In this document: positions 12,633-16,138 of the stretch, piece after piece
Numbering within the stretch: the stretch's first letter is position 1
Layout: each line of letters starts with the position of its first letter
DNA from: Marivita geojedonensis
Lineage (GTDB): Bacteria; Pseudomonadota; Alphaproteobacteria; Rhodobacterales; Rhodobacteraceae
Direction: 5' to 3'
NCBI RefSeq assembly: GCF_002115805.1
Contig: NZ_JFKC01000012.1
Span: 1-64,000 of the forward strand
DNA length: 64,000 nt
Position numbers and translations under genes: made by a program
The notes under the pieces: model-generated
Database searches by the model: none
The model's input: the letters and a program-made list of their open reading frames with translations, nothing else
Told to the model about the DNA's origin: nothing

Positions 12633-14024
12633 ATGACGCAATCCGAATTCGGACTCTTCCAGGAACGCCAGCGGGGCAGCTTCATTCGCCTCCGGACAAT
12701 GATCTGGTTGAGATGGTTCGCCATTGTGGGCCAGCTGACCGCAATCACACTTGCGCAGAAATTCTACAACCTGCAGCTCGAACTGGGCCTTTGCTATCTG
12801 GCCATCGGGGTCTCCATTGTCGGAAACCTCATCGCCATCTTCGTATTTCCCGAAAACAAGCGCCTGAATGAAGCCGAAAACTTCTTGATGGTGCTGTTCG
12901 ATCTGCTTCAGCTCTCGTTCCTGCTCTACCTGACGGGTGGACTCCATAATCCATTCACGATCCTCATCCTTGGTCCGGTGATCGTTTCGGCCACGATCAT
13001 GACCCTGAGATCGACAATCATAATTGGAGCGACGGCCCTTGCTCTTGTCACTCTGATGATGTTTTTCCACCTGCCGCTGCGGACAGAGCAGGGTTTCATC
13101 CTGCGGATCGCAGACGTTTTCGTCTTTGGGCAATGGGTCGCGATCACGATCGCAGTCATCTTCCTGTCGCTGTACGCGCGCCAGATCACAGAAGAGATGA
13201 ATTCAATGAGCGACGCCGTCGTTGCCACGCAAATGGCGCTCAGCCGAACGCAGATGCTCAACAATCTCGGCGGTGTCGTCGCAGCGGCAGCGCATGAGCT
13301 TGGCACACCGCTGGCGACGATCAAACTGACCAGTGCTGAATTGATCGAAGACCTGGACGATCATCCGGATCTTCAGGAAGACGCTCGCCTGATCCGGAAC
13401 CAGGCAGACCGATGCCGCGATATTCTGCAATCCATGGGCCGGGCCGGCAAAGAAGACCTGCAGATCCGCTCAGCGCCATTGCTCGAAGTCATCCGCGAGG
13501 CGGCGGAACCCCATGTGAACAGAGGGAAGGATGTTCTGATCGACGGGTTGGGCGACGAAAACGAGATCACCCATGATCAACCTCTTGTTCTGCGCCGGCC
13601 CGAAGTCATTCACGGCCTCCGCAATCTGATTCAGAACGCAGTGGATTTTGCCCGTGCAACGGTCTGGGTCGAAGCCAGATGGGACGAAAAGACCGTTTCG
13701 ATGCGCATTTTGGACGATGGTCCAGGCTATCCGACGAACTTGCTGGGTCGGATCGGTGATCCGTTCGTTCGCAACCGGCGCACCGAACGCGACCGTACAA
13801 CGCGGCCCGAATATGAGGGAATGGGGCTTGGACTGTTCATCGCCAAAACGCTTCTTGAGCGATCCGGTGCGGAACTCAGTTTTGCCAATGGCAGCGACCG
13901 CATGAATGGCACAAGCAAACGTCGCGGAGCGGTTGTCGAGGTGATCTGGCCAAGAGAAGCAATCGTTCCGCCCACGCTCCCGAAAGGTGAGGGTATCGGC
14001 GAGAACCCGTCTTTCGATCTTTGA
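12633..14024 (+). CDS. regB: Redox sensor histidine kinase RegB/PrrB
   Basis: 463 residues. Six hydrophobic segments occupy roughly residues 20-180, including the quinone-binding heptapeptide GGxxNPF (GGLHNPF). The dimerisation box AAAAHELGTPLATIK carries phospho-accepting H221, and 40 residues later lies C261 in ADRCRDILQSMGRAG, the redox-active cysteine (H225/C265 in R. capsulatus). The ATPase domain shows NLIQNAVDFA, DDGPGYP and GMGLGLFIAKTLL. It phosphorylates RegA under reducing or anaerobic conditions. ATG 12633 is used because homology begins there. All catalytic residues are intact. Confidence 0.96.
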   Translation: MTQSEFGLFQERQRGSFIRLRTMIWLRWFAIVGQLTAITLAQKFYNLQLELGLCYLAIGVSIVGNLIAIFVFPENKRLNEAENFLMVLFDLLQLSFLLYLTGGLHNPFTILILGPVIVSATIMTLRSTIIIGATALALVTLMMFFHLPLRTEQGFILRIADVFVFGQWVAITIAVIFLSLYARQITEEMNSMSDAVVATQMALSRTQMLNNLGGVVAAAAHELGTPLATIKLTSAELIEDLDDHPDLQEDARLIRNQADRCRDILQSMGRAGKEDLQIRSAPLLEVIREAAEPHVNRGKDVLIDGLGDENEITHDQPLVLRRPEVIHGLRNLIQNAVDFARATVWVEARWDEKTVSMRILDDGPGYPTNLLGRIGDPFVRNRRTERDRTTRPEYEGMGLGLFIAKTLLERSGAELSFANGSDRMNGTSKRRGAVVEVIWPREAIVPPTLPKGEGIGENPSFDL

Positions 14025-14041: not shown

Positions 14042-14058
14042 TTAACGATCCATTAACC
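14042..14058 (+). promoter_or_regulatory. Full CtrA-type box (TTAA-N7-TTAACC)
   Basis: The sequence TTAACGATCCATTAACC matches the CtrA consensus TTAA-N7-TTAA(CC) without mismatch. It lies 17 bases after the regB stop and 51 bases before the PAS-protein ATG, where it could position or block RNA polymerase. In a by-eye scan of the intergenic regions of this window it was the only full match. Confidence 0.6.
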
Positions 14059-14060
14059 AT

Positions 14061-14096
14061 CTCCGCGTTGACTCCAGCCTGCGCACAAACGCGGAG
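14061..14096 (+). promoter_or_regulatory. Perfect 9-bp inverted repeat covering the Shine-Dalgarno
   Basis: CTCCGCGTT (14061-14069) is exactly complementary to AACGCGGAG (14088-14096), with an 18-base loop. The right arm contains most of the GGAGG ribosome site (14093-14097) of the gene starting at 14109, so folding would hide it. If transcription starts between the CtrA box and the repeat, this would be a translational switch; if it starts inside the repeat, the inverted repeat could instead be a protein operator. Confidence 0.5.
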
Positions 14097-14108
14097 GTCC
14101 GGGCAGAA

Positions 14109-15614
14109 ATGGTTTTTTGGCCACCCATTATCGTTGGTCTGGTATGTGCCGGTGCGGTCGCTGCATGGATTTTCCAACGAAACCGCCCAGTCCCGTACTC
14201 ACCTGATACGACATTTGAACAGAGTCTGTCTCTGCTCTTCCAAGATGGCGTTCTTGTCGATGCCGATGATGAAGTCTGGCCATTGCTCGCAGACATCCCC
14301 ACACCAATCACATGGGAAAGCACACGCAAGGCTTTAATCCACATCGTGCCATCTCTGCCCCTAACCCTGACGGAATTCGAGCCTAACAAAGCCCAATCAC
14401 CTGTTTCTGTCTCACTCCGTAAGGTTGCAGGAGGATATCGGGTAACCTTTCTTCCAACGCAGAAAAAAACTTCCAAACAGTGGTTTCTTGATCGCCAGAA
14501 CGAAGTGGCTGTCTCCCAAATCCGACCAGCGCTCTTATATGCGCCCGATCCAATCTGGTGCGTGGATGCCCGAACTGAAGTGATCTGGGGAAACGAAGCC
14601 TTTTGCGACCTTTCAGGCCAGCACGGCGGAAAGACCGCTTTTGCAACCCAAATTGCAGAACAGATTTTCGACGGCGAAATCCTGTGTTCGAAGCGTATAA
14701 AGCTGGAAGGCTCCGGTTCCGTTGGCCCAAAATGGCTCGAAGTGACACGCAAGGAAACCGAAACCGGAATTCTCTTTTATGCGAATGGCGCTGACGCAGT
14801 TGTGCATGCCGAGGAAGCACAGCGAAATTTTGTGCAGACCCTCTCCAAGACCTTTGCAAATCTCACCACCGGACTCGCGATTTTTGACCGCGAACGGCGC
14901 TTGGCCCTGTTCAACCCGGCCCTGATCGATCTGAGCGGTATATCGGTCGAATTTCTCAGCAATCGACCACCATTGTTTGAATTCTTCGACAAGCTGCGCG
15001 AACGCCGCGTGATGCCTGAGCCGAAAAACTATGACAATTGGCGAGAGAAGATGGCCAAGCTTGTCGCCGCTGCCAGCGATGACAGATACCGTGAGACCTG
15101 GAACCTGGCCGGCGGTCAAACCTTCGATGTGACCGGGCGTCCTTATCCTGATGGGGCCATCGCATTTCTGTTCAACGACATTACAGCCGAAGTGTCTCTG
15201 ACGCGGGGATTTCGCGCTGAACTGGAGACCATGCAGTCGATGATCGACGCGATGGAAGATGCCGTCGCGGCGTTCACGCAGCAGGGTGTCCTGACCGTGT
15301 GCAATACAGCCTACAAGCTGATGTGGAAAGTTGATCCGGACACCCGCATCACCGAATTCACCATCATGGAAGCGACGCAGGAATGGAAAACAGCATTTCA
15401 CCCAAGCCCGGTCTGGCCCGAACTTAGGGACTTCGTGACCACCAGTACCGAAAGGGCGAGTTGGGACAGTGACCTGCGCGCAAAAGATGGGCGTAGGATC
15501 GTCTGTCGGGTCGATCCGATCTGCTACGGCGCGACGCTGGTTCGCTTCTGTCACCAGCCCAAGGTGCAAGAAGGCGCAAACGAACAGGACGGGCTTCAGA
15601 TCGTTTCCGCCTGA
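14109..15614 (+). CDS. Membrane PAS-domain protein without kinase domain, possibly DivL
   Basis: 501 residues: one N-terminal membrane helix (about 4-23), then three PAS-like regions. These lie at about 130-235 (ALLYAPDPIWCVDARTEVIWGNEAF), 245-350 (TTGLAIFDRERRLALFNPAL, NDITAEVSLTRG) and 365-490 (MIDAMEDAVAAFTQQGVLTVCNTAY). It ends after the last PAS; no HisKA, HATPase or output domain is present. Its place between regB and tsaE agrees with my recollection that R. capsulatus DivL, a PAS protein acting on the CckA-ChpT-CtrA relay, lies in this neighbourhood. That link is inferred, not shown. A full CtrA box and an SD-covering hairpin lie directly upstream. It could also be an accessory sensor for RegB. 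Confidence 0.75.
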   Translation: MVFWPPIIVGLVCAGAVAAWIFQRNRPVPYSPDTTFEQSLSLLFQDGVLVDADDEVWPLLADIPTPITWESTRKALIHIVPSLPLTLTEFEPNKAQSPVSVSLRKVAGGYRVTFLPTQKKTSKQWFLDRQNEVAVSQIRPALLYAPDPIWCVDARTEVIWGNEAFCDLSGQHGGKTAFATQIAEQIFDGEILCSKRIKLEGSGSVGPKWLEVTRKETETGILFYANGADAVVHAEEAQRNFVQTLSKTFANLTTGLAIFDRERRLALFNPALIDLSGISVEFLSNRPPLFEFFDKLRERRVMPEPKNYDNWREKMAKLVAAASDDRYRETWNLAGGQTFDVTGRPYPDGAIAFLFNDITAEVSLTRGFRAELETMQSMIDAMEDAVAAFTQQGVLTVCNTAYKLMWKVDPDTRITEFTIMEATQEWKTAFHPSPVWPELRDFVTTSTERASWDSDLRAKDGRRIVCRVDPICYGATLVRFCHQPKVQEGANEQDGLQIVSA

Positions 15615-15664: not shown

Positions 15665-16138
15665 ATGACCAAAAGCAGAGCGGCCTTCACCTCACACTCT
15701 CCCGATGAGACCGCACAGCTGGCAAGGCGCGTGGGGGCGCAGCTTGGTGCCGGAGACACTTTGCTTCTGGAAGGAGGAATTGGAGCCGGAAAAAGCCATT
15801 TCGCGCGCGCGCTGATCCTGTCGCGGCTGGCCGAAGCCGAAGATGTTCCATCTCCAACCTTCACGCTTGTTCAGACCTACGATTTGCCGGACTGCGAGTT
15901 ATGGCACGCCGACCTGTACCGCTTGGGCGATCCGGATCAGATTGTTGAATTGGGCCTCTTGGACGCATTTCAGGCAGCGATTTGTCTGATCGAATGGCCC
16001 GACAGGCTTGCCGAACTGACGCCTGAGACCGCCCTCACCGTCCGTTTTGACGACATGCTTCAGAACGACACCCGACAGATCGAGTTCACATGGACCGCGC
16101 CGCACTGGACCAGTTGTGTCAAAGAGGCTCTGGCATGA
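15665..16138 (+). CDS. tsaE: tRNA threonylcarbamoylation ATPase TsaE
   Basis: 157 residues, the usual size. The Walker A loop GGIGAGKSHFAR, switch region SPTFTLVQTYD, and LWHADLYRLGDPDQIVELGL with IEWPDRL are diagnostic of TsaE (YjeE). It is the ATPase that drives turnover of the TsaB-TsaD complex in t6A synthesis; tsaD is at 4257. It is the first gene of a run in which tsaE, phosphotransferase, nucleotidyltransferase, addB and addA each overlap the next by 1-8 bases. Confidence 0.96.
   Translation: MTKSRAAFTSHSPDETAQLARRVGAQLGAGDTLLLEGGIGAGKSHFARALILSRLAEAEDVPSPTFTLVQTYDLPDCELWHADLYRLGDPDQIVELGLLDAFQAAICLIEWPDRLAELTPETALTVRFDDMLQNDTRQIEFTWTAPHWTSCVKEALA

Follow-up and report, generated by a model that had tools for sequence, protein, structure and literature searches.

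The analyzed window, i.e. the whole stretch of 64,000 nucleotides of Marivita geojedonensis DNA considered here, carries three consecutive genes on the forward strand, encoding the sensor kinase RegB, a PAS-domain protein and TsaE. A CtrA-type full box lies between the first two. The distinguished features, with the basis of each assignment, are listed below.

12633-14024, forward strand: regB, sensor kinase gene, the upstream neighbour (NF045988, 759 bits, cut-off 570)
14042-14058, forward strand: CtrA-type full box (exact match, family conservation, spacing control)
14068-14073, forward strand: weak -10-like hexamer TTGACT (columns 27-32 of the 16 genus members; family columns 28/29 and 32/33)
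14080-14081, forward strand: predicted transcription start, about 24 nt after the box (from the distance in Rhodobacter sphaeroides fla2 promoters and a purine excess at column 40)
14093-14097, forward strand: Shine-Dalgarno-like GGAGG (read directly from the sequence)
14109-15614, forward strand: gene of a short, PAS-only DivL of 501 aa (PAS_7 and PAS_8; profile match to full-length DivL-type proteins)
15665-16138, forward strand: tsaE, the downstream neighbour (PF02367, 115.5 bits; TIGR00150)

The short DivL and the CtrA-type box

A domain search detected neither HisKA nor HATPase_c in the 501-aa PAS protein of the window, and solely PAS families were found in all 32 aligned family members (E 0.01). 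The profile built from these 32 rows was compared by hhalign with a profile of full-length DivL-type proteins (four rows), which gave a probability of 100 and an E value of 2e-48 over 360 columns. The reference proteins were the four that were fetched (L268-L271) among 18 matching genomes of the class outside the family; HisKA and HATPase_c were present in the three of them that were scanned. In all four the kinase-type H box reads VSY, the phospho-accepting His being replaced by Tyr, which is a mark of DivL. Among solved structures, the single PAS protein had no match, and the best hit of the profile query was a weak PAS match (E 0.0012). The preliminary description had named DivL as a possible identity of this gene, and the comparisons above identify its product as a short, kinase-less DivL. 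In Rhodobacterales, DivL has been described as short and devoid of its kinase part, and DivK as absent (PMC9430884; PMC2877005; here and below, statements from the literature refer to excerpts of the cited papers).

Elsewhere in the same genome (C12:175192-175677) there is a second, weak PAS match, located in a 640-aa frame with an adjoining HATPase_c domain. This frame possibly encodes the additional divL-type kinase that has been described from relatives.

The box, TTAACGATCCATTAACC, occupies positions 14042-14058 of the forward strand and fits TTAA-N7-TTAACC perfectly. It is separated by 17 bases from the regB stop codon (TGA, 14022-14024) and by 50 bases from the divL start codon (ATG, 14109). 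The sequence, coordinates and distance from regB given in the preliminary description were exact, and its remark that this is the sole full match in the intergenic regions holds for all 64,000 bases, genic sequence included, whether TTAA-N7-TTAA or the longer TTAACC form is searched for. The TTAACC form did not occur in any of 100 dinucleotide shuffles of the window; matches to TTAA-N7-TTAA with one mismatch number four in the window (3.4 expected).

The whole genome (4.31 Mb) contains TTAA-N7-TTAA at 30 places and the TTAACC form at six, compared with 16 and three, respectively, for a control pattern read backwards. This corresponds to about 0.45 and 0.09 sites per 64 kb. A site with such a density is not rare, so a single match is weak evidence by itself, and an expectation of about 0.45 exact TTAA-N7-TTAA sites in a stretch of this length would be in keeping with a chance match. 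The significance of the box rests on its position and conservation, not on the match as such.

Conservation of the box and its linkage to divL

A search of 149 family genomes, each representing one genus and that of M. geojedonensis among them, gave a match to the protein in 137; of 16 congeners, 15 have it, G161 being without a match. The counts of boxes given below omit six weak or broken matches (G008, G017, G054, G095, G109 and G122), and L124, a family locus that breaks off within the gene, provides no upstream sequence. Among the 146 family loci analyzed, for which the stretch was fetched, regB lies upstream of divL in 139. The exact box is present between -40 and +250 of the regB stop codon in 120 of these, namely at the locus described here, in all 15 congeners and in 104 of 123 other genera; it is absent from this interval in the remaining 19.

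The spacing of the two half-sites is strict. Between -10 and +200 of the regB stop codon, 103 of the 123 other genera have the N7 arrangement. The counts for the remaining spacings between N0 and N20 are 0-4 of 123 each, and the N7 box in letter-shuffled sequences averages 0.2 with a maximum of 3 of 123. Twenty loci lack the exact box in this narrower interval, and 11 of them have a match with one mismatch, which is a raw count with no chance rate attached; in several of the 11 the first half is TTTA.

The sequences flanking the box vary among species while its position stays. Recurrence at the same place in most loci of different species, within varying flanks, refutes the view that the site is a chance match, the probability of which we regard as negligible. 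The preliminary description had proposed a search upstream of orthologues in other Rhodobacteraceae and had named a lack of conservation in close relatives as evidence against a CtrA site. Since the box is conserved in congeners and in other genera, this objection falls away.

Named genomes were also searched. A scan with the single protein as the query gave no match, and an alignment query yielded at least 564 related stretches, of which the best 80 were kept. In these best 80 of at least 564 loci regB lies upstream in 78, with the box in 68 of the 78; the nearest ones belong to Marivita species. These numbers are not to be added to the family counts, because the two sets overlap and the named loci are the most similar ones, not a random sample; Dinoroseobacter shibae, Rhodobacter capsulatus and Caulobacter fall outside the best 80 of at least 564. 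The breadth of conservation suggests that a link from CtrA to divL is nearly general in the family, extending beyond one or two model strains.

Three overlapping boxes were observed behind regB of Salipiger bermudensis (L226). They are located at +23, +34 and +45 from the stop codon, in an 11-bp register.

The box follows divL and not regB. Six loci lack the direct succession of regB and divL, and in every one of them the box is retained, 39-115 nt before divL. In five of them (L028, L081, L089, L128 and L129) there is no regB within the 1461-2077 nt upstream of divL, and in the sixth (L112) regB is 868 nt away from divL. The box is also present in a seventh such locus (L069), which is situated at a contig edge. 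Five regB loci of divL-less genomes were checked, two of which (L288 and L290) end too near regB and were not counted. In the other three (L286, L287 and L289) regB is directly followed by tsaE and there is no exact box, L287 having a match with one mismatch over the regB stop codon. Two of these three genomes are also without a CtrA match.

The occurrence of divL was compared with that of CtrA in the 149 genomes. At the cut-offs used, seven genomes lack both divL and CtrA, five lack divL alone and three lack CtrA alone (Fisher p 3e-7, relatedness ignored). One of the last three, G006, has the box as well as a piece of a CtrA DNA-binding domain (84% identity); the divL match of the other two is weak.

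These data bear on the proposal that the sequence serves another regulator or is just a sigma factor -35 element. FnrL binding next to divL has been suggested in R. capsulatus, and the half-sites of Dnr/Fnr and CtrA are alike (PMC7232146), but the strictly spaced TTAA-N7-TTAACC is the full site described for CtrA in print. Furthermore, both divL and the exact box are missing from G090 and G136, two genomes that gave no CtrA match and whose regB locus is informative. We consider this proposal highly improbable and treat the sequence below as a putative CtrA site.

Sequence elements between the box and divL

Upstream regions of 126 loci (120 with regB upstream and six without) were aligned on the box, with columns counted from its start. 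In this alignment the box extends to TTAAC...RTTAACC[A/T]T. Further downstream, 108 of the 126 loci (52 expected) have an A in columns 28/29 and 111 (47 expected) a T in columns 32/33, and column 40 shows an excess of purines. Within the window's genus all 16 loci, the window included, have the T and none has the A; of the 110 loci from elsewhere, 95 have the T and 108 the A. In these 16 members the block is mostly TTSAAT at columns 27-32, one column earlier. The window itself has TTGACT at 14068-14073, which is weaker than the TTSAAT of its congeners and retains only the T at column 32 of the family columns.

CtrA-activated fla2 promoters of R. sphaeroides have mapped starts 23-24 nt after the box and an invariant A at -11 (PMC6180460). 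If this geometry is counted from the box, the A falls at about column 28-29 and the start at about column 39-40, which fits the family outside the window's genus. Outside the window's genus, the family profile agrees with these promoters in the position of the box near -35, the distance to the start and the A at -11. The fla2 promoters belong to flagellar genes and their starts were determined by 5'-RACE (PMC6180460), whereas the divL start is predicted and the window's genus is without the A. A scan with the sigma-70 consensus, a method that does not cover CtrA promoters, returned no promoter-like site at the box.

The preliminary description had assigned divL a promoter separate from that of regB. 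Two observations speak for such a promoter of the CtrA type: the -10-like element keeps a fixed distance from the box, and the box remains with divL where the two genes are apart. Read-through from regB is compatible with the same data. It might even be that divL is expressed mainly by such read-through and that the box only fine-tunes it. The frequency of regB upstream of divL (139 of 146 loci), the short gap between the genes (median 101.5 nt in 138 loci) and the lack of a terminator-like site in this gap in a simple scan are all in line with this explanation. It sits poorly with a box that is kept at divL when regB is elsewhere and is missing where divL is missing, and with a promoter-like element conserved at a fixed distance, and we judge it unlikely. 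A CtrA-type promoter belonging to divL itself is the reading we prefer.

Two other features of the gap were noticed. GACTC, a site of the GANTC type (CcrM-type methylation), is located at 14070-14074 and overlaps the -10-like element; most congeners have GAAT or CAAT there. A perfect 9-bp inverted repeat (14061-14069/14088-14096) covers most of the divL GGAGG and, were divL read through from regB, might mask the ribosome-binding site on the mRNA. Of its two arms, a CtrA-driven transcript with the predicted start would hold only the second. A hairpin formed by this repeat was rejected as a translational switch: its fold z-score is -0.86, with 41 of 200 shuffles folding as well, and it is not conserved, a perfect stem of at least 7 bp being present in only two of 15 congeners and differing in sequence.

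Proposed CtrA feedback on divL and its possible origin

The genome of M. geojedonensis encodes CtrA (P0002; NF045991, 421.5 bits, cut-off 350). There is no exact full site just upstream of ctrA, the sole site listed on its contig being about 39 kb away. For the 30 exact sites of the genome, frames were printed beside 17 (20 frames), and six were submitted to family searches; as these were hand-picked for their resemblance to known classes, they illustrate rather than prove a CtrA regulon. An exact TTAA-N7-TTAA site (C18:50652-50666) immediately precedes a CckA-type kinase gene (L171), for which the best NCBIfam models are those of CckA, far below the cut-off and with an incomplete fetched piece. 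With boxes at divL and at this gene, two putative inputs of the CtrA relay carry them here. Another exact site precedes a frame encoding an RpoH sigma factor (family search over the cut-off), and further ones precede MotB-type, LuxR-type (with an autoinducer-binding domain) and EAL frames; the sixth frame, that of a glycosyltransferase, is also beside a site. Many other sites adjoin unrelated genes or sit under a long reading frame. Predicted CtrA sites have been listed at rpoH1, luxR2 and cckA of D. shibae (PMC4046655).

We hypothesize that the box is very probably a binding site of CtrA~P in a CtrA-activated promoter of the short divL, a confidence lowered very slightly by the lack of the A at column 28/29 in the whole genus. 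Phosphorylated CtrA would sit on the box over the -35 region, and RNA polymerase would use the -10-like element starting about 12 bases past the box. The transcript would begin near 14080-14081, and its leader would measure about 28 nt and contain the GGAGG at 14093-14097. The short DivL would act on the hybrid kinase CckA, which via ChpT would set the phosphorylation of CtrA, and CtrA would thereby feed back on its own input. We incline towards a positive sign of this feedback.

The binding of CtrA, activation over repression and the transcription start are what we infer in this scheme, and a real CtrA site through which CtrA represses divL, or which it binds with little effect in most conditions, deserves consideration. 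The cckA gene of Ruegeria KLH11 has a predicted full site, yet additional CtrA leaves it unaffected (PMC3692519), so regulation does not necessarily follow from a site; the -10-like element of the window is, in addition, weak. On the other hand, the box is at the -35 position, and repressing CtrA sites of Caulobacter overlap the -10 element, activating ones being near -35 (as stated in PMC6180460). Moreover, divL expression falls rather than rises in ctrA mutants of both D. shibae (PMC4046655) and R. capsulatus, in which the decrease in ctrA knockouts is significant (PMC6363796). Repression or a silent site is, in our estimate, slightly less probable still than main expression by read-through from regB, and activation is retained as the preferred interpretation.

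The concept of a CtrA-divL feedback is already published. CtrA was predicted in 2010 to control cckA and the kinase-less divL in the DivK-less 'cluster B' of Rhodobacterales, thus making a feedback (Brilli et al. 2010; PMC2877005), and on account of this earlier prediction the loop itself is largely ordinary. That prediction and the present one share the regulator, the short DivL, the feedback idea and the target pair of divL and a CckA-type gene. They differ in that upstream regions were scored with a Caulobacter matrix in the earlier work (PMC2877005), whereas the exact site was aligned here over 146 family loci, other spacings were controlled for, a -10-like element was recognized and the linkage of the box to divL was tested. 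What the present analysis contributes is how widely the box is conserved, how the promoter is laid out and that the box goes with divL. No mention of the -10 block at divL was encountered in the literature searched, which is no proof of its being unpublished, and the search found no paper joining Marivita and CtrA.

Expression data from relatives are available. The divL homologue of D. shibae (Dshi_3433) has a predicted CtrA site and its expression is lower in ctrA, cckA and chpT mutants (PMC4046655). It resembles the gene in the window in having such a site at a phosphorelay-dependent divL homologue; it belongs to another genus, and its orthology to the window gene is presumed, the Dshi_3433 record being outside the loci fetched. 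In Phaeobacter inhibens, divL1, which may or may not be the short divL, is repressed in ctrA and cckA mutants (PMC12363192). In the gafA promoter of R. capsulatus, gel shifts showed binding to a CtrA site whose distance from the start codon is conserved among species, but this is an N6-type site coinciding with the likely start, and the gene is a different one (PMC6363796). Direct control of divL by CtrA with feedback, as put forward in the preliminary description, gains from the expression data of D. shibae and R. capsulatus, and for M. geojedonensis it stands as a prediction.

Longer DivL variants within the family were considered with respect to the box. There were 16 long-tail candidates, of which 13 were fetched in full and three (L051, L075 and L131) were left out. 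A HisKA tail was detectable in four family members (L272, L273, L278 and L285), and the exact box is absent in the three HisKA-tail members with upstream sequence (L146, L147 and L150). No HisKA was found in the tails of five box-bearing long-tail members (L274-L277 and L284). The exact box is also absent at the four full-length DivL-type genes of other families. The association of box absence with a HisKA tail has a P value of 0.002, if the three members are assumed to be independent, and the coincidence of the box with DivL truncation is suggestive only.

The H box of three of the long proteins (L272, L273 and L278) contains His instead of Tyr; HisKA was detected in them, HATPase_c was not, and their genes are without an exact box. 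They are apparent intermediates between full and short DivL.

A tentative and rather doubtful scenario is that the box was gained with, and compensates for, DivL truncation and the loss of DivK, so that feedback at the protein level, through DivK and the DivL kinase part, became transcriptional. The place behind regB would then mean that divL is read from the transcript of a redox kinase as well as from a CtrA promoter.

Through the CckA-ChpT-CtrA relay, Rhodobacterales regulate motility, gene transfer agents and quorum-sensing traits, and the predicted promoter offers a clear, testable site of control for a poorly understood regulator of this relay. If the coincidence of box gain and DivL truncation is true, protein-level feedback would have been rewired to transcriptional feedback.
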